Shown here piece by piece: positions 2,823 to 64,000 of a stretch of DNA of 64,000 nt. Source of the DNA: Taxawa tesnikishii (nom. ined.) (lineage: Eukaryota; Ascomycota; Dothideomycetes; Dothideales). The position numbers were made by a program, and so were the translations under genes. The stretch covers positions 496,001 through 560,000 of the forward strand of contig JAPDRO010000002.1 in NCBI GenBank assembly GCA_030247885.1, given 5' to 3'. The stretch's first letter is position 1. The number at the start of each line of letters is the position of its first letter. The notes beneath the pieces are model-generated. The model searched no databases, was not told the origin of the DNA, and saw only the letters and a program-made list of their open reading frames with translations.

Positions 2823-3964
2823 TTAATGGAATCTATCCTTGCTGCCAGCAGGCGGATAATACCCACCGCCAAATTCCAAACTGGCATCCTCGAACTCATC
2901 CTCATGCTTCAACTCCCATGGACTGAACCAACCCGCCTCGTACACCTGCACCTTGATCGTAGCCTTGAAGCTCTGACCCAGGAAGTTCTCGCGATGGCCC
3001 TCCGCAAACGGGCTTGTGAGACTGAAGAACGTGCCTTTTGGCGCGCTGGCTTTGATCACGATCTTCTGCCTCCAACTCTGGATGCTCAGGTGAAAACTCC
3101 TGTCCTCCCAACTTTGTGACACGGACATGGTCGGGCTGCCTAGATATGGAATTTTGACGGCGAAGGGTGGGCGGAAGTCCAGCGAGTATCGGGGATCTTT
3201 GGCCCTGTAACCGAGTAGATAGGCTTCGAGGCCGAGGATCTGGCCGCCTGCGATGCACAAGCCGCGGTCTTCATCACGGCTTTGGATCCAGATGTGTGCG
3301 GAGGGGAAACTCATGGCCCAGTTCTTTTCCTGGTGCACTTTTGCTACGCCCTCTCGGTCTTCGGCCGGGAGGTTGTAACCGGGTATTTTTAAAGAGAAGT
3401 CGGTTTTGGATGCAAGAGATTGCACGTGCCAGTGGAGCGGAAGCGGGAGGTGAACCAACATGGATTCAGGACATTCAGTATCCTCGGACCACGGTGTCCG
3501 GCTGGTCGTTTTGCCTTTGAAGGTGAACTCGGGGCAATCCAGACTGTATTCTGTCGTAGAGTCTGGCCCGCATCTCACGTATCCGACACCTGGGATGCGG
3601 TGCTCGAAGGAGTATTTTGTTGTCGGGACCATCTTCAGCTCATCGACGAACAGTTCCTTCTGGTAGACGGTTTTCTCGGCGGGCGATGAGTCTTTTGGCA
3701 CGTATGTGAACGACACCATATGTGGCGGTTTCTTGTTTGCCTTCGGTACTGTGCATATTATCAGGGCCAGATGGCCACCAGAAGGAAATCGAACTTGTGG
3801 TAGTATCCTTCAAAGGTCGCGCTCGGGTGAGGAGCGTAGTGCTGCATGCTGTGCAAGTGCTCGGGCCACGTCTGCCAGAGCAAAGATGGTTCCTATACGA
3901 GATTGGGATCTGGATGCCAGGTAAAGTACTGTGGATCTGAAGCAATGGTTGGAGTATTCCGCAT
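2823..3964 (-). CDS. tocopherol cyclase-like (lipocalin-like fold) protein, reading frame disrupted
   Basis: The main open part (3719-2823, about 298 residues) carries H-Q-E-K-N-W-A-M-S-F-P followed by I-W-I-Q. This matches the EKNWG-x-FP...W-x-Q signature of tocopherol cyclase and related calycin-type proteins. Upstream the frame continues as GGHLALIICTVPKANKKPPH. One frame over it reads MRNTPTIASDPQYFTWHPDP from an ATG at 3964, then APHPSATFEGYYHKFDF. Two things interrupt it: a TAG at codon 24 (3895-3893) and a one-base loss near 3782-3787, where one more base would restore phase. With that base the gene would encode about 380 residues. In plants and cyanobacteria this family closes the chromanol ring of tocopherol; fungi make no tocopherol, so the substrate here is unknown. 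It may be a decaying gene or partly an assembly artefact. Confidence 0.6.
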
Positions 3965-4305
3965 ACGATGGCAGAAATGGATGCAGGGATAATAATGACG
4001 CAGTGATCAATCGGGCCAAGCTAAATCCAACGTCTTCGCTGGCTATTCCAGCCAAGCCGATCAAACCAAGGCAGACACAACAGAGCGGGTTTCATGTATC
4101 AATGAGAAAGACCAGGTAGGCTAGGTGCAAGCAGGCTTGTTCGGCCGTCTCATGTTCGAGCGATCAGCTAATTCCTAGCTTGACCATAAAGTTAATGAAC
4201 CGTTACAGAAGGAAGCCACCTCCAGCAATAGCATCGCCTAAACAACCAAAAAACGCCATGAGTGGGGTATCATTCTGTGCCAAAGTATATAACTCGCTCT
4301 TCCAT
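3965..4305. other. spacer between two minus-strand genes
   Basis: About 340 bases holding the 5' side of the tocopherol-cyclase-like gene and the 3' end of the next gene. No element stands out. Confidence 0.5.
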
Positions 4306-6680: not shown

Positions 6681-9600
6681 TCAAGACTCGAGCTCAGCTC
6701 GGAACGTCTCGTCCATAATATCGCTAAGCTTTTTGCGGTTCTTCAGGTTGAGGGCGCCGTTGCGCCAGGCAGAGCGCAGCTGCTTGAAAGCTGGACAGTC
6801 GGACTTGGCGTTTTCGGACTTGGCGAGCTCGATGTAGTCGCGGGCTATGCGGTCGCGAATTGGGCTTTGACTCGACAGAGATTCTTCGTAAAACTTGAGA
6901 AGATTGTTCAAGCCGACGCTGTTGTGGCGTTGAGCAGCATCCTGCTTGGCATAATGGCAGAATTCGTAGTACATCTGAGTGTTGAAGTTGCGGATGAGGA
7001 AGTGAGACCAGAATTGGTAGAGAACGTCCATGTCGTAAGGGCAGGTGCCAGTAGCGGCATCCTCACGCGCACCGAGCGCCTTTTCGTGTAGCTGAAGGTA
7101 GGGTTCATGAGTGGAGCCGTTAGGAAGCTTGCTCACTGGCGCATCCCGATTCTTGACCCAGAAAACTTGGACGTCCTCTGGAGGGGTGCTTGTGCGTTGG
7201 CGTCGCTTGAGTCGGTGGAGCTAGAGACACTGTGACAGGGTAAGCTGGGCACCAATTGGAAACTAGGTATTGAATTGTTTACCCGTTGGTGGCGCCGTCC
7301 CCGTTGGCCTGATGTTGAGCCTCTTTGTCCTCAGGCTTCTGCATCTCCTCGAAAATACTTCTCGAATCAATGGAGCCGTTCGAAAATGTCCTCGAACTAG
7401 TACCACGAGTGACAGCAATTCGCGGTTGAGCAACGTCATGCTTATGCGTAACCACCGTCAGGCCCTGAACCTGCTCCGCCAAAAAGTTGTCCGGCTCGGC
7501 GGACTCCTCGGTGAGAGGAGGCACTCCGTTGAAGGGCGAAATGTTGCTCTCACGGTAGGGCGACTTCACCCGACGCCCTCGAGATTCTTCGCCTGTCGCC
7601 TCGCCACCAAATCCAGGCTCAGCACTATGAGGGTAGAAGGCAGGTGGCATGCCGTTCATCATCTGGCGATCCATCTTGGAAAAGATCCGTGGGCCCCGGC
7701 AGAAGCAGGACTGCGAGCGTAAAATGGCTGCTGCTGCGGCTCGAACATGCGAAGTTGCGGCTGTTCTGGACGTTCAACCTGCTCTGGACCCTCATTCTGT
7801 GCCGAAGGATCGCGCTCATTCATCGGAAGGACCCACTTCTCCCAACCCTCCTTCTTGCGCAATCGCTCCTTCCCGTCGGAGCCGAGGCGAACCTCAATGT
7901 TAGGAGATTGCAGGCACACAAAACGGATAAGGTCGTACTCGGTAGTCAATTGCTTGATGCGATTGAACTGAGCAATGACGCTTATGAAGACGTAACCCTG
8001 GGAATCCATGTGCTTTCGCAAGTAGATGTCCTTCACCATATTTTCCAGGGAGAAGTAGTATTCCAGCTGCGTCGCGACCATAGCCATAGTGTATTGCTGC
8101 TCGACGGCGGGCTGGTAGGACATTGCTGTCGCGGGGTATACGCCATAATACTCAGGCATATAGGTCTGCACAGGTGGCATGGGGTAGCCGCTGTAACCCG
8201 CTGCAGGGCGTCCGTAACTGTCAAGAGCAATGGACTGGGATCGCACGCCGTGGTTGCGAAAACTGCTACGGCCATTCTGAGAATAGTGACCGCCACGGAA
8301 TGGAGGCTGCGAAGAGGGTATTCCGTATCCTGCACTAGCGTATTCGGCGGGGTAGCCATTGGGATACTGATGGCTTGCAGCATAATGGGCATTTCCAAAG
8401 CCGCGGTTGCCGCCGCCTCTACCACGCTTCGGCTTTGGCTCACGGAAACTCTGTGCATCACGTGCACCGTCCGCCGGGCGTGGTGCGCCGTTGGGCAAGT
8501 CCTTCGTATGGACACCCTCACCGTTTGCGAGCACAGGCTCTCCGTTAACTGCGAAAGTTAGATCAGGCAACCCATTTGCAATCGCAGAAACCGGCAAAGC
8601 AGGGCCAGGCAGAGCAAAGCAGGCTTGGCTTTCACGCACAGGAAATACAGAAAAGTTGTACATACCATCTTGGACCGACCCTCTTCGTCCTACAGACTCG
8701 TTGGAGCCATCTGCACGCCTGCCAACGCCATCTTTCCTTGGCGATTTGTTACCCTTAGGTGCAGTATATCTGCTGTAAGAAGCGGATGGAACAAATTCCG
8801 TTGCCGAAGCCGCAGCACCTTGTGGAATAGAGATGCTTGATGAGTCCACGGAATCGTTGATGAGATCGTTTCCTATCGAACGTGGTGTTGGTCCATCATT
8901 TGTGGTCCTAGCTGGTTTGCTGGATGGTGGTGGCATTGCCTCGCGATCGACCTTTGCCTGATCCGGCAGGTCTGATGGCGTTGGCTCGCCGTTGGGCAGT
9001 GAAGAAGCTCGGCCAGCTGGCTTCTCACCCTGTGCTCCCTGGAAACCGCCTCGTGCAGCAAAGCTTCCTCCACGGCCGCTACCACGTCCAGCCCTGCCTC
9101 CTCTTGCAGGCATGGCGGTTTCGAAAACGGCAGATGGAACGTAGGGTACGGCCTTCCACTCAGTCTTGCCATGGGATTTCGCGGGCGGCACAATCTCGCG
9201 ATTCTTCTCTGCCTTCTCTTCCTTTTCTTGGGCCTTTCTCTTATCCTCCTCACGTGCGCTCTCAAAAGTTGGCCATGCGACGTCGTTAGCGGCAGGTGGC
9301 GGAGCCGGAGCACTGCTTGGCGAGATCTGGCGGTCTGTGTCATTTGACCTGAAAGCACCTCTCTTGTGAGCATCAGAAGTCGAGTCCCACATAGGCCTTG
9401 AGCCCTGGCGAAAGTGGCTGCTGCGTGCCTCATCGGTTCCCCTCGCGGCATTAGTAGCTGGCTTCTTCCATTCCTTGCCAGCGTTTCTTGACTGCTCAGC
9501 ATCTTGCGTAATATTCGCCACAGAGTGTGCTTTCCCTTTAGTATCCAACTTTGCATTCTCCTTCTTGGCCACGGTTTCAGGAGCAGCAACGCTGTGCCTT

Positions 9601-10159
9601 GGGACGTTCTTCGATTGGAATTGTTGGGCCCTCTGGGTCCAGATGTTGACCGCGGGTGGCTTGGCCTCTTGCAACACAGGCTTCGGGGTGCTGCTTGCTT
9701 CGCTGTCTCATCACTCGCATCAGAGCCTGTCTTGCTCTCTTTGGAGTCTATAGATTTCAATGTAGGTTCCGAGGTTTGCGACTTGCTCTCCCAGGTTGTT
9801 TCCGAGGATGTGTTTTGGACAGAAGATGCATCATCGTCTTTCGAGATGGATGCTGACGAAGAAGCCATGTCGGGCGAGTCGACGCTTGCTGTAGCAGATG
9901 CGGCCTTGGAGCCCCCATTGGAACCTGCCTTCTCGGAGGACTCGGAGCTGGCAATTTGAGGTTCTACTACCTTGCTTGCGACGGTGCTATTCGAGGAGTG
10001 TCCCTCCGTGTCATCTGCCCAGCTGCTTCCTGGGGCAAGCTCCGAGACGGAGTTACTTGAAGGTGTTGCAGCGCCTGAGACTGCGGTACTTGACTGCTTG
10101 GTGGAGGACGCAGACGGGGTGCGACCCATTGCTGCTTGTGCATACGAGAAGGAGGCCAT
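6681..10159 (-). CDS. La-related protein, LARP1-like (La motif plus DM15-like C-terminus)
   Basis: Start MASFSYAQAAMGRTPSAS at 10159; exons 10159-7283 and 7229-6681 with a 53-nt intron. The N-terminal 500 residues are low-complexity (Ser/Ala, then RGG/Gly-rich). A La motif follows, with QLEYYFSLENMVKDIYLRKH, then GYVFISVIAQFNRIK and WEKWVLP. The C-terminal exon has YQFWSHFLIRNFNTQMYYEF and NNLLKFYEESL, which resemble the DM15 repeats that in LARP1 bind capped 5' ends of mRNA. The expected role is cytoplasmic control of mRNA translation and stability. The genomic frame is broken three times, each by one missing base in a short run: near 9685-9688, 7678-7679 and 7183-7186. With those bases the product would be about 1,142 residues. 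All domains are intact in sequence, so assembly error is the simplest reading. Confidence 0.85.
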
Positions 10160-26023: not shown

Positions 26024-26900
26024 TCAAGTGTACTGCCAAGCACCAACGACATGCTCATCAACCGCACTGACCTGTCCATAAAATCCCACACAATCACTTC
26101 CAAACGTCACGCCCGCTAACTTTGCAAACACCTGCCACACGCCCTCCTCCCCCTTGCGCAGGGCAAGCCGTAAGTCCCACACCACCAGGTCCGAAATACC
26201 CACCCCCGACATACGCACGCGTGTCCTGCGAACTGAGGTTGAACATGCTGGCACTATGCGCCTGCGTGTACGCCAACGCGCCGTTCGTCTGTACGAACGT
26301 GGCTTGTCCGCCGGGAACCATGACGGCCATGGCGTGGTCGGCGAACACGGTTTGGTTGCCTAGGCTGGCGCAGGTTGCATTGCTGACGGGTGGAGAGGGG
26401 CAGTAGGTCGACGGCTCGGAGAGGCCGATGAAGAAGTGTTGGCCTGAGGCTTGAACGGCCGCTCCGTTGAAGGGAGCGGTGGGGTTGATGGCGGTTAGCG
26501 TGTACTCGCCGTCGGTGGTGGGAAGAGGGGCGAGGGTTGAGTCGGTGCAGCTGGGAGCGAAGTGAGTTGAGTGGGAACACGATTGAAGGTGGGGCGATGA
26601 TGAAGGTAATCAAACAGGAGGTGTGTGAAGGTAATGTTGAGAGGGATGTGATCATCCGCTGGATCCCGACGGGAACGAAGGGAGAAGCACTTACCTATAC
26701 ATGTATGAAGAGTAACAAGCAGTCCCGCAGAGTTTGGTAGCCACGCCGTTGATAACGGGGCACAAGCCAGAGCCGTTCTCATTGTAGCAGGTGTACTGGG
26801 TAGGGTCATAGAAGGCGCCGCCGCACTGTCTAAGCTGGGCATGAGCAGATCCAAGGAAGACAGCAAGGGCGGAAGCCGTGTAGACAGAAAGGGGCGCCAT
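26024..26900 (-). CDS. secreted protein with N-terminal carbohydrate-binding-like module
   Basis: Exons 26900-26695 and 26550-26024 (144-nt intron, phase 2) encode about 243 residues. MAPLSVYTASALAVFLGSAHA is a signal peptide with a likely cut after AHA. The next block (RQCGGAFYDPTQYTCYNENG, LCPVINGV, CGTACYSSYMYSC) has the Cys-Gly...DP-x-x-YTC...LCP pattern of small fungal modules annotated as carbohydrate-binding (Pfam 'Carb_bind' type). The rest is unrecognised but secreted-like, with DGEYTLTAINPTAPF and paired cysteines. The end reads EGVWQVFAKLAGVTFGSDC and closes GAWQYT. A C5 run at 26149-26153 (plus strand) puts the end out of frame; four Cs would keep phase, so one base looks extra. 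A cell-wall or matrix role is plausible but inferred. Confidence 0.7.
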
Positions 26901-31385: not shown

Positions 31386-34300
31386 ATGACAGACAGAAAC
31401 ACGTCCGGCGCAATGCCCGCCCCGAACGGTCCTCTTCTTCCTCCCGTGCCTCAACTTCACGCTCCTGCTCCTCCTGCTCCTCCTCCTCCGCCGCCGCCGC
31501 CGCCGTCTGCTGCTCCGGTCGCGCAAGCTCCGATGCAGAACACGTCGAACCCAGCTCCGAACAATCAGACGCCCGGTCATCCCAGCTTTAGAAGGTGCGC
31601 GCAACTACACAACTACCTGACTGAGAAGGCGCGCATGTGCTGACACACAGAAGACAACGCGCTTCGAGGGCATGCGAGGTAAGTCTGACTGTCCCCTTGC
31701 GACAAGTTCGACCGCGTTTGCTAACATCTGCCGTAGACGTGTCATTCGCGCAAAGTACGTCCAGTCCACTGCTATGATAGCCCATATGCGTCTCTCACCA
31801 CACTCCTAACGCGCCAATATTCAGGTCCGTTGCGATGCTGCCAGTTTAGGTGTGCCTTGCACCAACTGTGTGGCTTTTTCCATCGAGTGCAAGATCCCTA
31901 CGCCGAAGCGCAAAAAGGCAACGGAAAGGCGAAAGATAATGAAAGGTACCGGCGGACTCTCCCACGGAAAGTGCAAGCGGGTTACTGACAGCTTGACAAG
32001 CCAACAGGGCGATTCCTCCCTCCCTCCGGATTCGCGATCACCAGCCACCAGTACCACTCTGACCGACTACGCTCCTGCCGCACGAGAGACAGCCGGAAGG
32101 GATATTGCTATGCCACGTGAGCTTCCAGGTCGAGAACATCAAATTGGCTTCAACTCACCAGAGGGGATGCCTCCGACTACAGTTTCCGAAGCTTACGCCG
32201 AACAACAACGTACCCACAACGGAACCTATGCACAGTACATGAAACCGAAGTTTGCGCGCGCGCCCATAAAGGAGGCTGGTAGAGTTGCATATCTTGGAGA
32301 GTCCTCGAACCTGTCCTTGCTCGTACACGACCAGCACGGAACCCCCGACGTTGTACATTACCCGTTACCGGAGAACGTGCGAGGCGCAAGAGCCAGGATG
32401 AACGAGTTGGACGAGCTGGAGATCAAGATTCTGCACGAGAGAGGTGCCTTCCTCTTGCCACCCCGTCAATTGTGTGATGAGCTTGTCGAGGCCTTCTTCG
32501 CCTGGATCGCACCGGTGGTACCAGTGATCAACCGCAGCAAGTTCATGCGCCGATACCGCGACTCGAAGAACCCGCCGTCGCTCCTCCTTCTTCAAGCGGT
32601 ACTGTTAGCCGGCTCACGAGTATGCAACAATCCACAGCTATGCGATGCGAGCGGATCGACAACTCCAGCCGCGATGACTTTTTACAAGCGAGCAAAGGCA
32701 CTATATGATGCCAACTACGAAGACGACCGCGTCACAATCGTTCAAGCGCTCATCCTGATGGGGTGGTACTGGGAGGGGCCTGAGGGTAAGGCGAAAGACA
32801 GAGGAGAAACAGCGCCATCCGCCCGATCTGACATTGCCTCAGATGTGACGAAAAACGTATTCTATTGGAGTAGAGTCGCTGTCATTGTGGCTCAAGGCTC
32901 TGGCATGCACAGAAGGTACTCATCCAGCACTTGCGTTCGCGCTTTTGTTTCAGCAGTAACAACGCTAACTCCTATACAGCGTGGAAAATTCGCAATTGAG
33001 CAGACAAGACAAGCGGTTGTGGAAGCGTATCTGGTGGACGCTCTTTACGCGAGACCGTTCAGTAGCCGTGGCGCTTGGTCGACCAGTCTCCATCAACATT
33101 GAAGACACGGATGTTGAGATGCTGACAGAAGAAGACTTCCTTGATGACGACCCCGACAAAGACCCGGAATACCCGCCCGATCCTCAGCACATCCAGTTCT
33201 TCCTCAACTACGTCAAACTTATGGAGATCACCGGTCTCGTGCTCTCTCAGAATTACGGAGTAGCCTCCAAGAACAGAGGACGCAACAACGCGCTCGAGCT
33301 TACCCATAGCGACATGGCTCTAGCTGATTGGCTGCAAAATTGCCCGAAGGAGGTATACTGGGACAGACAGCGTCATTACTTCTGGCCCGCCCTATTGCAC
33401 ATAAACTACTAGTAAGCGACTGTGCAACCTGCAACAGACCTTGCTGACGTCAAGGCAGCACGACTCTTTGTCTGCTTCATCGGGCACACATGCCTCCCGC
33501 TGGCTCGGCTGAAGCTAAGTACGGATATTTTGACGAGAGAGCATACCCGTCCAGAGACATTGCCTACAATGCAGCTGGCATGATCACTGCGATTGTTGAA
33601 GCACTGATCCAGCACGATCAACTGAAATACGTCCCTGCTTTTATGTAAGTGCCCGCCTCCGGTAGCACGTGGATGTTACTAACGACATCATAGCGTCTAT
33701 AGTTTGTTTTCGGCTCTGATTATGCACGTCTATCAAATGCGATCATCGAACCAGTCTGTCGTGGCTGAAACACAGCGACGATTGAACGTCTGCATGAACG
33801 CCATGAAAGAAGTTTCCAAGGTCTGGCTAGTAGCGAAGATGGTCCATACACTGTTCGAGTCTATCCTCGGGAATAAGGTCCTTGAGGAACGGCTTCAGAA
33901 GGCCGCTGGGAAGAGACATGCTAAGGACAGACAAAGCGCTCGGTCGTCAAAACCACCCTCAAGGCCAGACAGGCAGGACAGCAACGAGACGCACAAGAGA
34001 AAGTTCGAGGAGATGGAGTTTGGTTATGCCGGCGGACCACCAGCGCCGCAGATGTCTTACGAGCGGTCCAGACCACAATCTCCTGTGGGTGAGCGCGAAC
34101 AGAACCAGCAGAACGTTCAGCCACAGGGGCCACATGTTACAGCCAACACTCCGCCACCGGTACGGCAAAGCACAGATGCTTTCATGGGCACGTCTCGCGC
34201 AAACACTAGACCGACAACCCCTTCAACACTTACTCATATCCCGGAACGCCACCAGATCTTTTCCTTCACACACGCGACTCGCCCAATATTTCTCAAGATC

Positions 34301-35557: not shown

Positions 35558-36493
35558 ATGGACAAGAGGATTGAGCTCTACTTTGACGTTGGTGTGGAAG
35601 CTCCGTTGCTTCTATATACACTCAGGCCGCCTGCTTACACTCCGGTCAAGTGTCTCCCTACAGCTACTATGCCTTTTCCTATCTCCGCCAAAACGCAGAT
35701 GCCTTGCGTTCCAACGGAGTCGCTATAGAGTAAGCGGGTCCGGGACTGCCTGCTTCCAACCGGCTAACCACCCACTGAAAGATTTATCCCGGTGTTCCTT
35801 GGTGGGATCAACGTGGGCAGCGGTCAGGCAGCCTCAAGCTGTTACTATCGCCTTCTCTGAATCAGGCACACAGGAAACAAACCTCCTTGGACCCTGCCGG
35901 CCAAGGCGGCGTACTCGAAATACGACGGCCCACGAGCCCAGAGGTATTTTGGAAAGAAGTTTACTGTTCCCGACTTCTTTCCCATTGTCTCGCTTCTGGT
36001 ATGGCAGGCTCAACCAAAGACGCTCTCCACCCCCTTCTCTCTCATCCACTCTGAGACCATTCACTGACACGCAATCCCCGTCGGCGTGATTCCTGTAGCC
36101 GCAGAGAGCTCTCCTCCATATAAAAACCAACCACCCGGAGCGCTACGAAGCCAGCATAGAGTCGCTCTTCTCGCACCTGTGGAACCGACACCTGGACCTC
36201 TCGCACGCTGAGCATCTCGTCATGGCGCTGCGCGAGGTCCTGGACGCATCAACCGCCAAAGAAACCTCGACGCCGCCCGCGAGCCGGGCGTGAAAGCGAA
36301 GCTGACGGCCAACACGGAGCACGCGGTCAGGGATCTGGGCGCCTTCGGCTGCCCGTGGTTCTGGGTCAGCGATGGGAAGGGGAAGCGGGAACCGTTCTTC
36401 GGAAGCGATAGATGGCATTACATGTGGGATTATCTGGATTTGCCGCACGAGGACTTGAGGTTGCTTAAAGGGAAGGAGGACGCAAAGTTGTGA
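35558..36493 (+). CDS. glutathione S-transferase kappa (DsbA-like, HCCA isomerase family)
   Basis: Five exons: 35558-35591, 35651-35729, 35782-35822, 35874-35998, 36099-36493 (introns 51-100 nt; about 224 residues). The start MDKRIELYFDVVSPYSYYAF holds the kappa-class D-V-V-S-P-x-S motif with the active-site Ser. Then come FIPVFLGGINVGSGNKPPW, RYFGKKFTVPDFFPIVSLL and PQRALLHIKTNHPERYEAS. The end is GAFGCPWFWVSDGKGKREPF and FGSDRWHYMWDYL. Kappa enzymes use glutathione in mitochondria or peroxisomes. In the last exon one base is missing near 36258-36264 (AAAGAAA): the frame leaves STAKE and resumes at DAAREPGVKAKL. Because exons 1-3 are 34-79 nt, ORF scanning alone sees only the tail. Confidence 0.87.
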
Positions 36494-37360: not shown

Positions 37361-38334
37361 CTACTTCGCCCTGTTGATCAAAGTCGACCTGACCCTCGTG
37401 TTCACGACTCCGCCGACGCCGAACGCGGGCACGATCCTACACATGCGCGCAAGACTGCTCTTCAACCAGTCCAGCCTGACCTTCCTCATGCGCTCCGCGA
37501 ACGAAACGCCTTCACGCCGGTTGTACAAATCCAGGCCGAGCAGATGCAGCGGTGTGCTCAACAGCTGCACGCTCGCGGGCGCCGCGAACTGCGCTACCGA
37601 CAGACCGCTGACGTACTTTTCCATTCCCTGCCCGATGGGGATGTGCGGCGCGAGCAAGGGGGATGTTGAAGCTGGCGAAGATGGTCATGCAGTCCCGAGC
37701 CGCGAACAGGGCGTACGAGACCGGTGGGACGGGACGTGACGACACGGCGCCGAAGATGCGGGTGAATTGGCTGTCTTTGTAGAGGCAGAGGGAGAGGTTT
37801 GCGCCGCTGGTTGCAACGAATTTAGAGACGCCGGATTCGGTGTAGGCGGAGGGCTTGTTGGTGGTCGTGGAGATGGTGGTGTCGAGGATGTTGGCGGTGA
37901 GGTAGGTGCCGGTGTAGAGAGCAAAAATTAGGCGGAAGGGCCGCGAGATGAGGAAGTGGTGTGGGCGGAGGAGGAGAGAGGCTACAGAGGCACGCAAGGA
38001 GGGCATAAGCGCCTGTCGCCCGGATGCGTTCTCAATTATTGCTCTGGGAGAGGTGTGTTAGTAGACGATTCGAGTCGAGCATACAGTCAGAAAGCGTGTT
38101 TTTGTACAGAAGAGGGAGAGAGAGAGAGGGGTTAGTAGGGGAGAGTGAGCATTACCTGTCAATCATGGTGATAACGGGCGCAACGAGCACGCCCGCCGTC
38201 GCGGCCGCAGCGCCATCTGCACACAGTCGCAACCCCAGGTTGTTGGTATTCCATTGTCGGTTCTTTCCGAGTAGGACCGAGGGAGCATTAGTTGCTGCGA
38301 CTGGCGCAGGCGCTTCGCCTGCTCCGGCACCCAT
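37361..38334 (-). CDS. conserved fungal membrane protein, probably mitochondrial
   Basis: Exon 1 is 38334-38156 (MGAGAGEAPAPVAATNAPSV) and exon 2 is 38043-37361 (112-nt intron, phase 2); about 286 residues. Repeated segments of hydrophobic residues with small and basic residues recall carrier-type inner-membrane proteins: AATAGVLVAPVITMIDRAII, RPFRLIFALYTGTYLTANIL and SYALFAARDCMTIFASFNI. The end has QFAAPASVQLLSTPLHLLGL and SSLARMCRIVPAFGVGGVVN. I recall such proteins as conserved across filamentous fungi without an assigned role. A G5 run at 37658-37662 (plus strand) shifts the frame between FNIP and LLAPHIPIGQG; four bases would keep it, so one looks extra. Location and transport role are inference. 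Confidence 0.72.
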
Positions 38335-45681: not shown

Positions 45682-48600
45682 ATGGAAACACTTATGAGCG
45701 ACACCTTTCTACGTCAGAGCACCAATGAAACACTGGCACGGCACTTCGCCCAAATTCTTCAAATAAAGCTTCGCAAACGCGACCATGTCGGTTCTTGCTT
45801 ACCAGCCTCCCCTGCCGCTGAACCCACCAACGGATCCATGCTCGGTGAGGCTACTTCATCAGCCGGCACAGATTATGTCGCTTTGGCCGCAGAGGAGATC
45901 ACCTCGCACCTGCTGGAAAAGACAGACTCAGGATTGATCCCACCACGTGTATTAGCGACATATCTGAAAGCAACACCGTATCCTAAAGCGGTCGCAGATG
46001 TCTTGGAACAAAGTCGTTCTCTTACAGCCCGCAAAGCGGCCATCAAGCGCTTCGGAGTCTGGATGCGGTCCAGGGCTTGGAGAGTCATGTGGAACGAAGT
46101 GGGAGCGGAGACAGGAGTACGGGAACTGCTCGCCCGCTGCTCTGTTTTGGAAGTGAGGATGCTCTGCAGCGCCCTCGGTCGATGCGGCGGCCACACTGCT
46201 CAAGCCAGCGCAAGACTTTCTCCCATTACGAGACTTCTTGAAGAATTACTGTATGCTGCGAACAAAGATGACCGTCGCCTACTGAAGTACTACGCTCTCC
46301 TTGTGCCTGCGTGTACCGCAGAGTTCGTCCGTTCTCTTCTTCAGGACGACCAGAGGCGTATTTTGGCATACGTGAACTTGCGTCAACTGCAAAGGCACCG
46401 TCCAAACCTCTTTCGCGAGAAGTTCACGAAACTTGTCATCACTGGTGACGCAAAGCTAGAGGACTGCGAACGGTTGCGGCCACTACTCCACTCGATACCT
46501 GACCGGATGGCCACTTTGGACGGGCATCGAGTATCAGCACCCATGCAGTATAGCTTCCATCTCATAAGCAACCTTGTCGAACACAAAGTAGAGGCCCCAA
46601 AAGTCTACCTTTCTACGCCGATCTAGCCGGACCTCTCTTGTCCCGAGCCATCAAGAAGAGAGTGCATCGCGACTTGCGGACGAAGATCATACAGATGATC
46701 ATCGATTACCTACAAGCTCACCCTTCCGCGACGCATGAGGACGCCCTTTGGTCCGGTGAGAGCAGCTTTGTTCATCACGTCGTACGTCTGTGGTCTGAGT
46801 ATCGGGAGGACCATGAGCACTTGATGCCTGTCGTCGTATCTCTGATTCCCGAGAAACGGCTAGCGGACCTGCACAACGTCGTGGATTTGTTAAACGCAGC
46901 CTGGTTCCGCTATCGTTATGATCTCCTGCACGTCCTGATCCTGAGAGGGAAAGGGTCCGAGACCGACATTGGCAAAGCCGATGACCTGCACCCCAGCTCC
47001 TCGACTCAGTGGCTTCCAGAGCTGTTCACTGCCCTTCCAACAGAGAGTTCTTTGGAGCTCCTGCAACGACTCGCCACCTCTCGACCGGCAATGGACTTCT
47101 TGGCGGTCGGGCAAGAGCATTCGATTTTCCAAGACAAAGCACTGCCAAATATGCCTCATGGCAACACTGTTCTTCTGAGGACATATCTCGAAAGAGGCTA
47201 CAAAGGCGCTTTGGAACGGGCGAAGTCCGCCATTAATGGACGTAAAGCAAGGGCGGCGAAGAGCAGAGAACAAGACGATCGTGCCTTTTTCGCTCGCTCG
47301 TGTCTATTCCTAGCGATTGCTAGCGGATCTCTCGAGGTATATGCAGAGACCTTGATATGGGCACGGCGCTTCAACCGCGATGCTTTGACCGTCAAGAGTC
47401 TGTATACAGGGCAGGTCTTCCAAACTTCTGAGGGAATTGAACTACTCTCCGGAATCCCAGAGCACCCACTCCGGGATTCTACGATGCAAGACATAGGAAC
47501 ACGGGTGACGAAAGCAAATTCAATTCTAACGGAGATGGTCGAAACTGCCCGTATGGGCCAGAGAGAGCCCTTCTTCCATTGGCGAGACTGGCAAGCCGTG
47601 TTTGGTTTGTTCAAGGCAGTTGTTCACACCAGACTGAGACGATACCCAAGGCTGGAGAAGATCTTTTCTAACGATGCTTGTTACGATTCAATCTGGAAAC
47701 CTACAGTCGAAGCCCTAATTAGTGCCGAGGAGTTTGGATTGAAGGAAGAGAACGAAAAGCTGCGTTTCAACAGCCTGAATGGGGTTCTCGCATACCACGA
47801 CCCCTCAAGCGTTCACTACGACTATGAGGTCGTATCTGAAGCCTCTGCACCGACATACTGTCACTTTTTGAACGACCTGGCAATACGCAGAGACCAGCTT
47901 TGGGAACGACGAAGACCCTTGTCGTCGCCAGCCGTGACGAGCCTGCCGGAACCCTGGCCTCGCGGATTGGCTGTCCAGCATTTAACTCACCATCGCGTCA
48001 AGGCGGAGCATCTGCCGCCTCACGTCGTCAAACGCGCAGAACGTGTGGTCTTCATGGAGTCAAGGTTGGCCCTTGCTCCAATGCCGGAAGACAAGGAGGC
48101 AATTGATGCTATTGGGCCATTTGTGGACGACTACCGGGATGCACTGAAGACATACGTGCAACAGGGTGTCAACAGATCCGACCAAGTCGCCAGAACCAAC
48201 AAGGCATGGGATCACGCTCTCAATGAGTTAACGGGCGATCGTATGACACGTGACGAAAGCGTGTGCTTCTGGAGGAATATCTTCAAGCTGACTGACACTG
48301 CTCAACTACACATTCCCGTCAAAGATCCCTACGAGAAGCTGCCTGAGAGCTTTCCCATCGTTGACAATGCAGATGAACCTACCGAATGGAATCCTGCATC
48401 TGGGCGGCCTTTGGATTTGGAAGAGCGGCCACTGCAGTCGACAATCTTGGACTGTATGCTAGAAGCAGGATGGTTCCACTATACCGACAGGCCCGTACTC
48501 CCAATCACGCAGACCACTGTGGCGACGAAGTCCGAGAGTTTCTTCAACCGGGATGGTGTGGATCGCTTCATGACACCCAAGACAAGAGAAGCTTTGATTG

Positions 48601-54235: not shown

Positions 54236-57200
54236 ATGTTGAACAGGCGATGGCAAATAGCTCTCCAGCAGACGGCGCGGAGGTCGTACAGCGCGTCCAG
54301 ACAACCCCGATCGAGCCTTTTACTATCCTCACACGCGACCTCTTCTCTTCACGCCCGGACATCCTCAACTCCGCTCTACCTCCGTTCCGCCACATCCCAC
54401 TCTTTCTCGACATCCACAGCGCGACGAAGGGAGAAGCCGCCATCCGATGACGACGGCAAGGATGGAGACGAGAAGAAGACGGACGTCACGCGGGAAGATG
54501 GGCAAGATGCGGACTCCAAGAACAAGGTGCCGGAGCCAAAACCTATACCTAATGCTTCGGAGGAAGGGCGCCAGCGCACTCGGAGGCGCAGCTGGCGAAG
54601 CACCTTTGGGTGGCGCTGGCGGTGGAGGCAGGCGCAAGGGATCCGGGGAGCTGATGAAGCCGTCGGTGCCAGACGTCTATCCTCAGGTCATGGCCATTCC
54701 GATCGCGCAAAGGCCGTTGTTCCCCGGCTTCTACAAGGCTATCACCATCAGGGACCCGAACGTCATCAAGGCAGTGCAAGAGCTCCTCAAGAGGGGGCAG
54801 TCATACGTAGGAGCGTTTCTGCTCAAGGACCCCGAATCCAGTCAAGATGTCATCAACGACCCCAGCGAGGTCTACGAGGTCGGTACGTTCTGTCAGATCA
54901 CCGGCGCATTCCCCGCCGGAAACGACAAGGACAAGGCATTGCAGGCCGTGCTTTACCCACACCGCAGGATAAAGCTCAGTGAGCTCCTCCCACCAGGCTC
55001 CGGTGCAAAGGGAGCCGCAGGAGCTGAAGGTGCCACAGCTGGAGCCGCCACCATTGAGGCTACTCCAGCGCCTGAGCAAGAGCCCACGAAAGAGGTGCAG
55101 CAACCCGAGCCGTCGCAAGAAGGCGGCAACGTAGTTGCCAGCTTCGAAGAGCAAAACGTCGAGCAGACCAAGGATTCGAAGGCAGCCACGAACTACGAGC
55201 CTACCGATTTCCTGAAGACATGGAATGTCAGTCTGGTCAAGGTTGACAATCTGGTGGACGAGCCGTTCGACAAGAAGTCGCCCACCGTCCGCGCACTGAT
55301 TTCGGAGATCGTCAACACCTGCAAGGAGATCGGCAGCGTCAACCCGCTTTTCCGTGACCATGTCTCAGCATTCGCCATGTCACAGTCCGCTGCCAACATT
55401 GCGGACGAACCTGCTAAGCTCGCTGATTTCGCGGCCGCAGTCTCTGCCGGTGAGATGGAGGAAGCACAAGAGGTTTTGGCCAGCCTGAACATTGAGGAAC
55501 GGCTGAACAAGGCATTGCTCGTCATCAAGAAAGAGCACATGAACGCACAACTCAGCTCGAAAATCAGCAAGGACGTCGAGACCAAGATTCAGAAGAGACA
55601 GCGCGAGTACTGGCTTATGGAGCAGATGAAGGGCATCAGGCGAGAGCTTGGTCTCGAGAGCGACGGAAAGGACAAGCTGGTGGAGAGGTTCAAAGAGAAG
55701 GCGAGCAAGCTGGCTATGCCGGAAGCGGTCAAGAAGGTCTTCGACGAGGAGGTCAACAAGCTCGCTCACCTCGAGCCCGCAGCCAGCGAGTTCAACGTCA
55801 CCAGAAACTACCTTGATTGGCTCACTCAGATTCCGTGGGGTCAGCGCAGCGCGGAGAACTTTGGCATTCAAAACGCAAAGAAGGTCCTTGACGAGGACCA
55901 CCACGGCTTGAAGGATGTCAAGGACCGGATATTGGAGTTCATCGCCGTTGGTAAGCTCCGTGGCACCGTCGAAGGCAAGATTCTCTGCATGGTCGGCCCT
56001 CCAGGTGTAGGAAAGACCAGTATCGGAAAGTCGATCGCTCGGGCACTCAACAGGCAGTACTACCGCTTCAGCGTCGGTGGTCTTACAGATGTTGCCGAAA
56101 TCAAGGGCCACCGGAGAACCTACGTCGGTGCACTGCCCGGTCGGATCATTCAAGCTCTGAAGAAGTGCCAGACAGAAAACCCACTTATCCTCATTGATGA
56201 AGTTGATAAGATTGGCCGTGGCCACCAAGGCGACCCGTCTTCCGCGCTGCTCGAGCTTCTTGATCCGGAGCAGAACAGCTCGTTCTTGGACCACTACATG
56301 GACGTGCCCGTGGATCTCTCTAAGGTTCTCTTTGTCTGTACAGCAAACATGACTGACACTATCCCAAGGCCGCTGCTTGACCGTATGGAGATGATCGAGC
56401 TTTCCGGTTACGTAGCGGATGAAAAGATGGCTATCGCTGAGCGTTACCTCGCCCCTGCTGCGAAGGAGCTGAGCGGTCTGGAAAACGTCGACGTGCAACT
56501 TGAGAAGGAGGCAATCGCTGAGCTCATCAACAAGTACTGCCGCGAGTCTGGTGTCCGTAACTTGAAGAAGCAGATCGAGAAGGTCTACCGCAAATCGGCG
56601 CTGAAGATCGTGCAAGACGTCGGCGAGGACGTCTTGTCCGAGGAGAAAGCATTGACCGAGGAGGGCAAAAAGGCGCAGCAAGCAGCCAAGGAGGATGATA
56701 CTGACGTCAAGACTACTCCGGAGGACATGGCGAAGGAGACGACAGAGAAGCCTCGCATTGCGCTCAAGGTACCAGAGAACGTGCACGTCAAGATCACCAA
56801 GGACAACCTCAAGGACTATGTCGGCCCACCGGTCTACACTGCCGACCGCCTGTACGACACCACTCCACCGGGTGTAGCTATGGGCCTCGCATGGACGCAG
56901 ATGGGTGGCTCGGCTCTTTACATAGAATCTATCCTCGAGAACGCACTCTCCTGGAACTCGCGGCCAGGCCTTGAGCGCACTGGCAACTTGAAGAATGTTA
57001 TGAAGGAGTCGACCCTGATTGCGTACTCGTTCGCAAAGGGCCTCATGGCCAAGCAATACCCGGAGAACAAGTTCTTCGAAAAGGCACGGATACACTTGCA
57101 CTGCCCTGAGGGCGCTGTGCAGAAGGACGGGCCCAGCGCCGGTATCACCATGGCGACAAGTTTGCTCTCTTTGGCGCTAGACAAGCAGCTTGACCCGACA

Positions 57201-57896: not shown

Positions 57897-59171
57897 AAAG
57901 ACGTTCTTGTTCGTGTCCGTATGCCGACAGCTATCTGTGTCATTGTATATCCACCTGTGCAAGAGTCGCGGATCGCAAAGCTGTGCCAGAAGCTATCCCG
58001 GGCCGGTTCAGCTCTCGACCATGTGCGGATCTCATCGCCGATGCTCCCTTACCTGTACTCGGCATCGTCCGCAGAGACGCGCCCTTCCTCGTACCCAACA
58101 GCGCCAACGAACCGGCCTGCGCGGCATTCGTCTGCTCGCTCATCTCCGTCGTCCCCGCCCAAACTCCCGGCAACGGCGATATGCGATATCTTGGTCGGAG
58201 GGAGCAGATCTTCCGCGAACTGCGATCCTTACTCGAACGCGATATTGCTTCGTGCCGGCCAGATCAACATGCCACACTGTCTTCGATGTGCATCTGTGGC
58301 GGCGTGCTTTCACACGCAGCCGTGTGAGGCTGAATGTCCCGCTTCCCCAGTCTGGAAGCTGGGCGGAACACGATACAGGTCTTGGGCTTACAGCGATCAC
58401 TCTCTGGCATTCTAAGCGACGCAACCGCGCCCACAGAGGAACGACTAACCCATCCCAACGGCTGGTGGGCACAGCAGAACCATCCAGCAATACCGGGCCT
58501 CCGAGGCACAGCATGATGCAGCTGCAGTTCACGCCGCTTAGGAGCACGTCACGTGGTACAAAGGCGCTTTTCTCATCTCCTCGGACTTGAACTCCATCAC
58601 CCGAAAGACATTGGCTTGTCAGGAAGCACATGGGAGCGCGGCTTGTCTCCGCTGCTCTGCTTCTCGTTGGTCTTCTAGTGTGGACGGGATTCCCCCATTA
58701 CGTGCATCCATCCTTTTGAGCAACGCGGTTTTGGTACGCTGGGTGCATGGCCGTGCGCTGGACACAACTCTGTTGTAGTACTACGCCGCATTGACCGCCG
58801 TTCAGCTTGGATTGTTTTTCCGTGATCCAGTTTCCTGGCGAGCGCGAAATCTCCCCACCTGGGATGGCAGATCTCGCGTTCGCGTGCAACTTGCCAGATC
58901 GGGTTGCTCATTACGTGCGTATGTGCGTACCACCGCCGTCATCAGGGTATCATGCGCTCCCGGCCGAACGGTGGCGCGAAGATCCGACAGCTCCCTGATC
59001 GCGGCGTCTGCTGATCAACAACAACAACAACCACAACCACCACCAAAAAGCATGCTTTCAGCTGCCGTGATTGGCGGAGTTTCGCGTTTTCGCGCCGGGC
59101 AGGGGCTGCGATTTCTGACAGGTGGAGAGCGCTGTCGGGAGACTGCAAAGAGAAGCTGAACAGACCCAGTA

Positions 59172-59199
59172 CCGGAGACCCAATGCCGGAGACCCAATG
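59172..59199. repeat. 14-base tandem duplication
   Basis: Two identical head-to-tail copies of CCGGAGACCCAATG, followed by the first four bases of a third. Confidence 0.85.
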
Positions 59200-60483
59200 C
59201 CGGTGTCAGGCCGCCTCAGCGAGCAGCTTGTGGTCGGCCTCTACTGCGCCGTCCGCTTGATCGTCGTCCAGCATCACCTACGCTCACATGCTAGCCACAA
59301 CGTCAATGCCAAGCCACATGTTCCTCTCCTCGCCCCCCGCAACCACGCATACGCCCACCTCGGCCCGTGAAAAATAGATTGCTTTCTGCTTATTGTATTG
59401 GTCGATCACCGACCGACCAATTGGCCGGTTGAGCCAACGCTGCCATGGCAGAATTGCAGCGATGCGAGCCCGAGAGTTGCTCGCGGCCTCCGTTGATACG
59501 TTCGTAGGCTCCTGTCACACACACAGGAAGCACGAAGCACCTGTGCCTCCCATGTTTCGTCTCTTGTTTTGCTGCGTTGTACTCAAACGGGCCGACCGGC
59601 AGCCTGGTCAAGCGCCTCGGAGAGACCGATCGGCAGGTGCCCCAGTCTTAGGGATCACTGGATCGATCCGATTCACCAACAATGCCATTCCTGGTCGGAA
59701 CGAAGAATGACGGAGTTCAGACATGCATTCCAAGGAAACTAACCCCAGAGACAGTGCCTAACCTCGCGGATCCACCCAAACTATCGAACCTCCCCACGGC
59801 TTGGCTGCTGCGACAGCCCGCTCGCGGGACGGTTGGTGGCGGTGCAATGGAGAAATTCAATTGCTTCGGGACACAACCCTCCTCTAATCTTGGGTGCCGC
59901 ATATCATGATCCACGGGAACCCTGCTCTGCTTTCCTTTCTGGGGTCATGCTGTCTTTTGGCCCCTACCGCCATACTGGATAGATCAGCGCCCTGGGCTGC
60001 TAATACTGCCCCGGGATTCCCCCAGTCTTTGCGGCTCTGTGGAACCTGACCCATAAGGCCACCATGCTCTCCCTTCTCTTCTTGGCTCTTGAGTGGTCTC
60101 ACCCACTCCACTGTAAGACGGCGTTCCTACTGCAGCTAGCCTCAACACCTACTATCCCAACTATCTCAACTATCGCTGGCAAGTTCCAACGGCCCACACA
60201 CGTGTCTCCTGTCAACAAAGTTTTACCAGTGCAAGCCCCTAACCCCACCACCGTGCAAGCGTCAAAAGCTTGGCTGCCTCTGTGGTGCCTGACTGGCTTA
60301 CCGGTCTTTGACCATAATACAGGCACCGTCCCGGAGCGAAACACAAAGACCATCGCGGAGATTCAGTCGGTCATCCCACGAGGCCTTCTACGTGTATTGA
60401 GCTGAGCCTTGGACGACCTACTAAGCGGCCGAGATTCGTTTGCGCAACGACGTCTTAGGCTACCGCTGCGCCGTTGCTGCCGC

Positions 60484-63400
60484 ATGGACACGCTAGTAAA
60501 GGACGACGAGAATCTCGACAGGGACACATCCAACGATGCCTCCAAAGAAATCAGCACCGACACGAGTGCTGCAGAGGCAGCAATCAAGGCTCGTCTCTCC
60601 CGAAAAAGGACAAAGACGGGTTGTCTGACCTGTCGCAAACGAAGGATTAAGTGCGGCGAGGAGAGACCGGTCTGCAAGAACTGCATCAAGTCTAAGCGGC
60701 ATTGCGAAGGCTATAGCCAGAGGGTAGTCTTCAGATCCGGACAGCAAGGCTACCAAGTCTTCCCGTATGGAGGGACGCCTATCGACTTCCAGAATGGCAT
60801 GCCTCTTGTGCCAGAAGGGGTTCAATCCTATACCCAGATGCAGTTTGTACAGGTACCACCACCGGCAGTACGACCACGACCTCTGGCACCTCATGAGCAG
60901 GTTCTCCAGGCGCCTCAGCAGGCAGAGCAGCAACAACTGCAGATGCCGATGCAACAGCAGCCCTTTGTCCCACTCATGTATCAGTACCCGATGCAAATGC
61001 AACAGATGCAGCAAGGCCAGATGCCTACATTGGTCCAGCCGGTACAGTTCCAGCCGTCAGCACAGCAACCACAGCATGTCTGGATGCCGCTTGAGCAACA
61101 ACAGCAACAGCAGCTGTACCAGCCGCAACAGCCGATGCACAGTATTGCCAACGGCCAGTTGGCCAGCGCTCCAACACTTCAAGAAAATGCGCAAGGCTAC
61201 GGTGTATGGACCTCAGCAGTCCCGAGCGTCAACCAGACTGTTCAGCCGGTTGCGAATCAGCATCCTCAATATCAGATACCTGTGCATTCCACACCGCCTC
61301 AGCGCAATGCCGCGACTGAGAACGTTGCCTTCAACCCACAGATACTTCATCGCGCTTCGCAGGTTTCTGCAGTCTCGGAAAATCATATCAGTCCTACGCA
61401 CAGTCAGTCAACGTATACTCTTGGTGGTAGTCAAGCTCCGCCAAGTCCTTCTACTTCCACAGCACAGCAACCACTGCAACGGGCGTGGCAGCCAAGTGGA
61501 TACACACCAAGGCCGGAGCTGAGTCGGCCCATAGACTCTCAGCGAGCGCCTTCCTATTCTGGCCAGGTACCTTATCCGGCAGTCCCTTTCCCACCGAGTG
61601 AAAGTCCTGGTGAGTATAGGCCTTGCTCGCATCCTCGTCCCGACGATAAACCACTAAGCGCCCCTCCAGTACCTGAGAGGTGGCATTTCTTGACCCGGAA
61701 TGGACCCATAGCAACACACTAACCGCCTTTCTTAGTGAGCCAAAGACACCCCTCTGAAGCCTTTGTTGCGTACGCAACAATGAACACGCCCGAAATGGCT
61801 TACCAGACCACGATGGGTCAATGTGTCAGTCCAACGAGGATGCTAAACGATGCTGCGGTAGAGGTTTTGGATGACGACTACTACGACGTTGAGCCTGAAG
61901 ACGAGATGGATTTGGCTGAAGTCACTCTACAGCTTGTCCCTAGTGGCCAGCGGCAGAAGCTGATCGGAAACATACTGGCAAGATATGTCAACTCACCCGA
62001 AGGACTGAACCTGCGGCAGGGATTGACTTTACGACGTTACGACAGTTTTATTTACCCTGGATTGCTCGACAGCTACCGTCCAGAACGGGTTGCAAATCCA
62101 CTGAAGAACCCGGCGACAGCCCGCGTTTTTGCGCATTTCATATCAGCTACTGGACCAACGTTGTCCATCTTTGAGAGGCACTCGAGGAATGCGTCTGTAC
62201 TGCTTGACGACGGTCCTGTCCCCTTATCTCAGCAAGGCATCTGGACCTACACCATGCCCATGGCTGCGCTGCATCACCAAGGTCTCTTGCACGCCATGCT
62301 GGCCATCTCGAGCTTGCACATTGCCAAGCTGTCAGGAGGCTCTGAGACACCTTCGATGAAACACTACGCCTTCGCGCTCAAACGTGTACATCGCAGCGTT
62401 GGAGATGCCAAGAAGCGCATCTCCATTGAAACTCTGGCTGCCTCGCAGCTCCTCGGCTTCTACGAAATCATGACCGCAGACCACATGAAATGGAACAGCC
62501 ATCTCCTCGGGGCGAAACAGCTCATTGTAGAAACCGACTTTGCCGGTATGGCAAGGGAGCTGCGACGCACGAAGCTGGAGAAAAGAGCAAGGGAACAGCA
62601 GTGCAATTTTGGCAACTCCCTCGACATGGGGCCCCTGCATTACACTCACTACCAGGACGACCATTTGCTCGACCAAGTGCCTGATATCGACGAGGAGCTC
62701 GTTGGTGTGTTGGTGGGCAGGAAGATCAAGTACGACGAGTATGGAAGCATCATCGACGACGACGATCAACCAAAAACCCCGCCGCCTCGGGTTTGTAGCT
62801 TTAGTCTTGACTTACAAAAGTTCGAGACCCTCAAGGACTTGTATTGGTGGTATTGCAAGCAGGACATCTACCAAAGCATTATCAGCGGTAACCCTCTACT
62901 GTACGTTGTGCTTGAGTCTTTATTGAGATGCACGAGTTACTGACCCCCTTAGGATGGATTACAGTCGCTGGACCGATTGCCCACCAAGAGCGCCTTTGGG
63001 AAAGGCAGATGCCGTCTACGGCTCCTTCGACCACCTTATGTTACTTCTTGGACGTATAGCGAACTTTGCGTCAAGAGATAGAAAACGGAAATTGAAGGTT
63101 ATGGAGGCCAACGGCGGTCAATGGCGTCCTGCGCCTGGCATGAAGATGGGTCCACCACCAGGGGCCAAACCCCTGGAGCCGACCCTGCTGACGCACTACC
63201 CTCAAGTATTGAGGGCCGGAAACCATCCTCGGGCGCTCCAATAAATCCTCGTATGCCTCCACAGGGAATGGCCCGGGGTCCCGGCATGCCGCAGCAGATG
63301 GCCAACCCACAACCAGTGCAAGCAGGGCCGCCTCCACAAATCTCATTCTACGGAATGGCGCCTCCGCCAGCTAGGGTAGCTATGCCAGCTCGATATCAGA

Positions 63401-64000
63401 CGAACCAAACCTCGCCCACACCCTCCACTCTTTCACACCAAGACTCCATTGATCTGGACACCGCGACAAAAGACGCGCTAGCAGAATGGCAACGCATCCA
63501 CCACGCCCTCGATGCATACGCGTCCCGCCTCGGGCCCAACTTCCAGCCCTTACCAGAAGACTGCCAACAGCCACTTCCAACACCTTTCGGACTCGCCCTC
63601 TTCTACCGCTCCTACGACATCAGCTGCCTCTGGCTCGTATACAACATGTGCGTCATCATCGCGGAACGCTCTCATCCTCACATGCCGCCCGCCGCACACA
63701 TGGCCGCCGGCATCGCGGCCTTCAAGACGCGCGAATCCGCAACAAACATCGGCCGTATCACGGCGGGCATCGTGAGCCCGCCGCAGAACCAGCCGCTCAG
63801 CCCCGCCCTCGGCGCTGCCATGTGCGAGTGCTGCATGGCGCTGTTCATCGCCGGCGTGCAATACCAAGACCCGCGCAGCGGCGGTGGACCGTGGAGCGGC
63901 TGTTCGAGACGGACCGCCGATGCGGCTGGGCCACTGCGGGCGTCATCGGCGAAGGCTGCCAGACGTCGTGGGTGAAGGCTGCGTTCATGGGGAGAGGCCC
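60484..64000 (+). CDS. Zn2Cys6 transcription factor, runs off the window
   Basis: Exons 60484-61609, 61736-62900 and 62953 to the window edge (introns 126 and 52 nt). The start MDTLVKDDENLDRDTSNDAS leads to the zinc cluster KTGCLTCRKRRIKCGEERP, then VCKNCIKSKRHCEGYSQRVV (C-x2-C-x6-C-x5-C-x2-C-x6-C). A long Gln/Pro/Met-rich linker follows, then a fungal-specific regulatory domain with HHQGLLHAMLAISSLHIAKL, LLGFYEIMTADHMKWNSHLL and FETLKDLYWWYCKQDIYQSI. The last exon has two one-base losses, at the C4 run 63170-63173 (GAKP then GADPADALPSS) and the C3 run 63870-63872 (VQYQDP then RRWTVERLFETD). The C-terminus is missing. Targets unknown. Confidence 0.88.

Follow-up and report, generated by a model that had tools for sequence, protein, structure and literature searches.

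The window, by which is meant the whole 64,000-nucleotide stretch of DNA analysed here, is fungal DNA and holds 20 modelled genes, of which nine are broken and 11 unbroken. The broken genes encode, among others, a LARP1/La-related protein, a Lon protease and two Zn2Cys6 regulators, while several of the broken proteins have no Pfam match above the cut-off. Nearby lie Nup84, an esterase, a sugar porter and a Zn-cluster gene (23711-25686), the last being taken as the Dal81-like gene of the preliminary description. Three-frame views reveal that at or beside 12 coordinates in the nine genes a protein-like frame stops and another starts (see the table). The 12 frame breaks listed in the preliminary description are thus all accompanied by a frame change, although 7184 is ambiguous and 3785 and 34225 are weak. 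Its division into nine missing-base and three extra-base breaks is reproduced, the class of each site being assigned by arithmetic only. The weakest support is that of site 3785, which delimits a short N-terminal piece and is uncalled in every free-end scan.

Table. Intervals of the 12 frame breaks in the window, with the host gene and the analyses on which each site is based.
Site	Class	Interval	Strand	Gene and position in it	Basis
3785	missing-base	3761..3789	-	about 20 codons past the putative start; protein without Pfam match	three-frame view, fixed-end scan, model-placed interval
7184	missing-base, possible break	7157..7196	-	LARP1/La-related protein, just upstream of the LARP1_HEAT match	three-frame view, model-placed interval, gene-left-out free-end scan
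7678	missing-base	7662..7727	-	LARP gene of 7184, between La motif and HEAT region	both free-end scans, fixed-end scan, frame-switch gain, model-placed interval
9686	missing-base	9655..9707	-	N-terminal part of the LARP gene carrying 7184 and 7678	both free-end scans, fixed-end scan, frame-switch gain, model-placed interval
26151	extra-base	26130..26201 (model interval 26154-26201, extended to take in the preliminary coordinate)	-	C-terminal part of a protein without Pfam match	three-frame view, both free-end scans, frame-switch gain; uncalled in the fixed-end run
34225	missing-base	34205..34230 (model interval 34210-34218, likewise extended)	+	C-terminal part of a Zn2Cys6/Fungal_trans regulator	both free-end scans, fixed-end scan
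36261	missing-base	36224..36289	+	GST-kappa/DsbA-like protein; the two pieces weakly match adjoining parts of this fold	three-frame view, fixed-end scan, model-placed interval, gene-left-out free-end scan
37660	extra-base	37641..37668	-	protein without Pfam match above the cut-off	three-frame view, both free-end scans, fixed-end scan, frame-switch gain, model-placed interval
46610	missing-base	46584..46624	+	large protein 45694-50645, without Pfam match	three-frame view, both free-end scans, fixed-end scan, frame-switch gain, model-placed interval
54567	extra-base	54547..54582	+	Lon protease, between presequence and substrate-binding domain	three-frame view, both free-end scans, fixed-end scan, model-placed interval
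63171	missing-base	63162..63244	+	Zn2Cys6/Fungal_trans_2 regulator	three-frame view, all-gene free-end scan, fixed-end scan, frame-switch gain, model-placed interval; uncalled with the gene left out
63871	missing-base	63865..63937 (model interval 63873-63937, likewise extended)	+	Zn2Cys6/Fungal_trans_2 regulator of 63171, near the window end	three-frame view, frame-switch gain, fixed-end scan; uncalled in both free-end scans

The scans rely on a 3-periodic order-4 coding model in which introns are allowed, trained on the 20 gene models from stretches picked with the list of breaks in view. With free ends and all genes in training, eight of the 12 sites receive a slip call (within 30 nt), and genes with a score of at least 10 receive none elsewhere. 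When the tested gene is excluded from training and each coding base earns a bonus of 0.04, 9, 7 and 3 of the 12 sites are called at penalties of -7, -9 and -11, together with 6, 3 and 0 off-site calls, of which 2, 1 and 0 fall in unbroken genes. Over nine settings of this gene-left-out scan the number of sites called ranges from 2 to 9, and 3785, 63171 and 63871 are never among them. The signal is lost once the bonus is removed: the scan then makes no call at -8 or -10 and four at -6, of which one is at a listed site and two lie in the unbroken Nup84. Codon usage alone is too weak a slip detector (two slips at a strong penalty).

With fixed ends, 10 of the 12 sites are called at -7 (with four other calls) and seven at -9 (with no others); at -11, in a run with two gene starts that were later corrected, the three calls are all at sites. 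None of the fixed-end scans places a call within the 11 unbroken genes. Because a broken gene whose end frames are fixed has to take up a slip or an odd-length intron, these scans test the location of a break and not its existence, and the same limit applies to the fixed-end spike-in recoveries (94/132 and 56/132). A P value of 0.001 for the lack of breaks in unbroken genes is circular and was left unused.

The frame-switch gain was computed with the tested gene left out and compared with 1507 control positions, whose maximum is 9.4. It exceeds all controls at eight sites, including 7184; because the upstream window of the latter spans an intron, seven of them count (7678, 9686, 26151, 37660, 46610, 63171 and 63871), site 7678 giving the strongest signal of all (31.3). 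The gain is weaker at 54567 (8.4; two of the 1507 controls lie above 8.4), at 34225 (7.1; 10/1507 above 7), at 36261 (3.8; 31/1507) and at 3785 (5.4 in a 63-nt window; 38/1948).

It had been proposed that the breaks leave no room for an intron. This does not hold at 7184, where an intron at 7282-7189 with an AAG acceptor joins both frames and is preferred by the model; there, an intron would be a rival on an equal footing with a frame break. At 10 of the 11 other sites the -7 model favours a slip, by margins of 0.1 (3785), 1.5 (34225), 2.2 (54567 and 63171) and between 3.8 and 7.1 (the remaining six), which vary with the penalty chosen. At 34225 a weak intron rival (34160-34209) is taken by the model at -9. 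At 26151 the model prefers an intron of 196 nt, but this intron extends beyond the gene's own stop. The competing introns have mostly GC or poor donors, or lengths above 100 nt, with a fair donor at 63871. An AAG-acceptor intron (43117-43168) is also part of the best model of the sugar porter, which is whole only if that intron is accepted. Some of the apparent breaks may, then, be unrecognised introns with unusual splice sites, a tentative reading that is compatible with assembly error elsewhere: it draws on 7184, on the sugar porter and on the model's choice at 26151, while the preference for slips at most sites, the quality of the competing introns and the overrun at 26151 speak against it. 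With this proviso for the sugar porter, the neighbours described as intact (Nup84, the esterase, the sugar porter and the Zn-cluster gene) show no slip in the all-gene free-end and fixed-end runs, although isolated calls appear in Nup84 under other settings.

The frames on either side of the breaks keep their coding character. In the models of the all-gene free-end scan and of the fixed-end run, no nonsense codon lies outside the called introns. Four same-frame ORF junctions contain stops, each within a called intron of multiple-of-three length (51, 54, 57 and 126 nt), and a further stop, at 7279, coincides with a weak GTAAAC donor and is read as nonsense in some gene-left-out free-end settings. 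Under neutral decay, 4.75-5.24 nonsense codons are expected per 12 one-base indels, given the ratio from Neurospora mutation accumulation (1077 single-nucleotide mutations versus 96 one-base indels in the excerpted data of PMC10234303); the probability of finding none is 0.005-0.009 (Poisson) or 0.016 (negative binomial). The broken genes do not differ from the unbroken ones in frame contrast (median 0.116 against 0.111, P 0.94), a comparison in which recent decay would escape detection, and the coding score per base is likewise similar (P 0.49). Twelve random hits distributed by gene length would strike 8.35 genes, compared with nine observed: the placement of the breaks is independent of gene identity, as by chance. 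Their density, 12 in 34.5 kb of coding sequence, amounts to 0.035% of coding bases, a level at which about 41% of genes of 1.5 kb would carry a break. It is difficult to see how a haploid with such a proportion could be viable.

These observations suggest that the breaks stem from small indel errors in the consensus of an incompletely polished assembly (probability about 0.85) and that the organism's genes themselves are most likely intact. The cause would be technical, and long-read or flow-type sequencing in which run lengths were miscalled is its probable source. Assembly error is favoured over mass pseudogenisation because no nonsense codon lies outside the called introns and frame contrast is equal, because the placement over genes is chance-like and missing bases exceed extra ones by 9:3, and because the density resembles that of a published long-read draft and no recoding motif is shared. 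In the excerpts of the report on that bacterial nanopore draft (PMC12007338), errors make up less than 0.05% of the assembly, indels are mostly false deletions, and errors of this type peak behind runs of four to five bases, A/T runs being the commonest context. Homopolymer indels causing frameshifts are also described in nanopore assemblies of filamentous ascomycetes (PMC9453082, in part). As far as these partial sources go, the window resembles such drafts in its one-base-class breaks within otherwise normal genes, its excess of missing bases, its similar density and, by eye, its short runs. It differs from the bacterial draft in that C/G rather than A/T runs predominate by eye and that run enrichment in the model intervals is not significant. 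The preference of the preliminary description for assembly error is therefore upheld, on indirect grounds (nonsense codons, contrast, placement, the 9:3 ratio, density and motifs), whereas its homopolymer component is only plausible. The claim that almost all breaks lie in runs of two to five bases gains a P value of 2e-5 when its own coordinates are used, but the model-placed intervals are uninformative (Fisher P 0.16). A run of 14 G at 42015 apparently stays in frame, which argues mildly against gross run-length compression. Also weighing against the assembly-error reading are the triplet arrays of the window, which are long and clean, the predominance of C/G runs by eye, and the stops within called introns and at 7279.

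That the breaks reside in the organism's DNA, as in a duplicated or mutator fungus in which a large share of the copies have single-base breaks, too recent for other decay to be visible, and partner copies maintain the functions, is improbable. Decay of many copies in a whole-genome-duplicated or hybrid fungus, with their partners intact, would agree with the nine of 20 modelled genes hit, frameshifts across many unrelated genes being a likeness to pseudogenes after genome duplication; it is decidedly improbable, since roughly five nonsense codons were expected and none lies outside the called introns, and since frame contrast is kept in the broken genes. In Neurospora, moreover, insertions and deletions number 134:97, unlike the 9:3 of missing to extra bases here (P 0.02), and homopolymer mutations favour A:T runs (PMC10234303, as excerpted). 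A mismatch-repair-deficient strain accumulating run-length mutations would itself predict a lack of nonsense codons. In such yeast, the excerpted report (PMC3755907) gives 87.7% of mutations as homopolymer indels, deletion-biased and in runs down to four, with rates rising about fourfold per added base; with about 41% of its 1.5-kb genes broken, a strain of this kind would hardly be viable, and this origin is scarcely credible. A consensus collapsed over two differing alleles or nuclei could also yield mosaic frames, and apparent frameshifts in Trypanosoma brucei are reported to have been corrected through allele-specific assembly (PMC8445201, in part), but indels between alleles would be required in many coding genes, which makes this origin very unlikely.

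Programmed or tolerated ribosomal frameshifting, mending the breaks in translation, would fit the persistence of coding-like frames on either side, and adjacent open frames are a likeness to known programmed frameshifting (PMC5009743, in part). Unlike those excerpted cases, the window has breaks in both directions, with neither a shared motif among those tested nor a stop where the frame shifts. An in-frame -1 heptamer lies within 40 nt of one of the 12 sites, as does one of the seven +1 motifs tested, the latter at a missing-base site, and none of these motifs is common to the 12 sites within that distance. Euplotes-type frameshifting happens at stop codons, whereas here the next stop of the upstream frame lies 5-271 codons from the break and none of the 12 sites is at a stop. 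Recoding is accordingly barely conceivable.

Should the rest of the genome show breaks at this density, annotation would render about four in ten genes of 1.5 kb as truncated, split or missing. The assembly could then give rise to spurious reports of pseudogenes or of lost genes, which calls for a warning in annotation. A frame-slip scan that needs no relatives might assist in recognising assemblies of this kind, at the price of some false calls. Searches with three protein pieces in viral contigs and prokaryote genome contigs found no relatives, and the window yields neither a tRNA nor an Rfam match that reaches the gathering score. In a direct-repeat search that diverged gene copies would escape, the sole family of at least 40 nt reported is a TTC microsatellite.

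The one-base frame breaks that a preliminary description listed at 12 sites (named here by their window coordinates) in nine conserved genes are best read as consensus indel errors of an incompletely polished assembly, an ordinary explanation, yet an important one to anyone annotating this genome. About 11 of the 12 stand, some more firmly than others: 3785 and 34225 are weak, and 7184 is ambiguous. The testing draws on protein libraries and on the window's own sequence. The window (GC ~54%) contains some twenty fungal protein genes, 20 of them modelled, with products that include Nup84/107, a carboxylesterase, a SET-domain protein, a sugar transporter, an RpiB-type isomerase, a NUDIX protein, a Rua1-like regulator, a bZIP protein, Zn-cluster regulators, Lon protease, and a La-related protein. 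Their introns are short and mostly GT-AG, with branch sites of the CTAAC/CTGAC type. A search of three protein pieces against viral or prokaryote contigs found no relatives.

Features located in the window, with strand where assigned
Feature	Position	Strand	Remark
TTC microsatellite	25916-25955		13 copies; flanks the gene with the 26151 break
TTC microsatellite	27728-27799		24 copies; flanks the same gene
Candidate intron at 7184	7282-7189		AAG acceptor; connects two frames
Small ORF	41991-42335	-	no Pfam match
14-base G run	42015-42028		in the small ORF, near a proline run
Tandem array	42133-42201		perfect 9-base unit, 7.7 copies; encodes PMS repeat on - strand
Sugar-porter intron	43117-43168	+	best model has AAG acceptor with nearby CTGAC branch
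Gene across 46610 break	45694-50645	+	protein of ~1650 residues; both pieces without Pfam match
Tandem repeat	59162-59203		14-base unit x3; region without called genes

In a three-frame printout around each of the 12 sites, one protein-like open frame stops and another starts. To lessen the influence of the eye on the test, a 3-periodic order-4 coding model was coupled to a path finder allowing introns, slips, or read-through stops; its training stretches were picked with the list of breaks in view. Trained on all genes and with free gene ends, it put slips within 30 nt of 8 of the 12 sites and none elsewhere among genes scoring at least 10. With the tested gene left out and no coding bonus (a score added per base), the signal was too weak: at a slip penalty of -6 the unbroken Nup84 took two of four calls, and at -8 and -10 no slip was called. 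A bonus of 0.04 per base, the tested gene still left out, yielded calls at 9, 7, and 3 of the 12 sites at penalties of -7, -9, and -11, with 6, 3, and 0 calls off the sites (2, 1, and 0 in unbroken genes); 3785, 63171, and 63871 received none across nine settings.

Fixing the start and end frames forces a broken gene to change frame and bars a whole gene from any unpaired change, so that such scans address location and the intron alternative, not existence: they called 10/12 sites at -7 (with extra calls at 54246, 54430, 55055, and 63991), 7/12 and nothing elsewhere at -9, and three positions at -11, all at sites. No slip was called in the 11 unbroken genes at -7 and -9. The same limit to location applies to the spike-in control, in which 94/132 and 56/132 were recovered with the right class, and to the 14 to 17 breaks in all that could be derived from it. 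The extra call at 55055, which falls inside a Lon substrate-binding match that keeps to one frame, is probably false. Frame-switch gain, with the gene left out, exceeded all 1507 control positions at 7678, 9686, 26151, 37660, 46610, 63171, and 63871, and was weaker at 54567, 34225, 36261, and 3785. Frame arithmetic, with frames assigned from the ORFs, reproduces the described split of nine missing-base and three extra-base breaks as classes only, a one-base loss being indistinguishable from a two-base gain; likelihood agrees at 11/12 sites, the exception, 7184, being confounded by its intron.

At 36261, in a GST-kappa/DsbA-like protein, the piece that follows the break hits the end of the DSBA family (E 0.0005; 20.3 bits, where the curated threshold is 25.6) and, at E 0.81, residues 149-196 of a related isomerase. 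For the preceding piece the match is to GST kappa residues 101-143 (E 0.21), but three of its six listed hits are PhoB domains of equal E, and a Pfam search with it gave no match. Outside support at this site is faint and comes only from how the two pieces are ordered and spaced.

At 7184, in the La-related gene, the model favours an intron, and the break is either a slip or that intron. At 10 of the 11 other sites a slip beats an intron, the margin ranging from 0.1 to 7.1 units (penalty -7), and the intron favoured at 26151 extends beyond the gene's own stop. The sugar-porter intron reflects either a rare acceptor or an additional, unlisted small error.

The link to homopolymers drawn in the preliminary description is strong on its own coordinates, which may have been centred on runs: 7/12 sites lie at most 5 nt from a run of at least 4, which is true of 8.9% of coding positions (P 2e-5; between 2e-5 and 2e-4 when the window is set to 3 to 12 nt). 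It is not significant on model-placed intervals (combined P 0.16), outside which three of the sites fall. Within coding stretches, G/C runs (89 of length 4, 8 of 5, 1 of 6) drop off with length faster than A/T runs (100 and 21); outside them the difference is smaller (120, 23, 2, and one of 14 for G/C; 112, 30, 6, 1, and 1 for A/T). This thinning is compatible with shortened G/C runs, and with composition as well. The next longest G/C runs after the 14-base one measure 6. The small frame across the 14-base run seems to read on sensibly, and a long run apparently kept in frame fits poorly with gross compression of long runs.

Decay of the genes would be expected to bring nonsense codons. None was called in the free-end models trained on all genes (genes scoring at least 10) or in the fixed-end runs at -7 and -9. 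Four same-frame ORF junctions hold stops, each within a called intron (51, 54, 57, or 126 nt), and that of the esterase splits the COesterase match exactly where the profile continues. The stop at 7279, at a weak GTAAAC donor, is taken as nonsense in some settings of the gene-left-out scan with bonus; combining the highest bonus and the weakest penalty adds a few further nonsense calls, mostly off genes. The portion consulted of a Neurospora mutation accumulation study (PMC10234303) gives 1077 single-nucleotide mutations alongside 134 insertions and 97 deletions; of its 96 one-base indels, 88 were in homopolymers. Combined with the stop-making share of substitutions in the modelled genes (3.5-3.9%), this ratio predicts ~5 nonsense codons beside 12 neutral one-base indels; on it, the probability of none is 0.005-0.009 (Poisson) or 0.016 (negative binomial), and 0.03-0.06 with only 8 accepted breaks. 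Frame contrast is the same in broken and unbroken genes (P 0.94), the mean coding score is lower in the former (0.0008 vs 0.0085 per base) without significance by gene (P 0.49), and the breaks are distributed over genes as random hits by gene length.

Run indels that bring no nonsense codons could also come from a mismatch-repair-deficient strain, according to the consulted part of PMC3755907; however, ~41% of 1.5-kb genes would in that case be broken, which a living haploid could presumably hardly bear. Frameshifting during translation, whether programmed or general, finds no support; the breaks go in both directions and none of the 12 is at a stop codon. As for a shared recoding motif, an in-frame -1 heptamer occurs within 40 nt of one site only, and among seven +1 motifs sought over the same distance, one lies near one other site, in the wrong direction there. 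For consensus error, the consulted sections on one bacterial nanopore draft (PMC12007338) report errors in <0.05% of the assembly and indels that are mostly false deletions and occur most often behind runs of four to five, and those of PMC9453082 describe homopolymer indels causing frameshifts in nanopore assemblies of filamentous ascomycetes. In the window, break density amounts to 0.35 per coding kb (95% interval 0.18-0.61).
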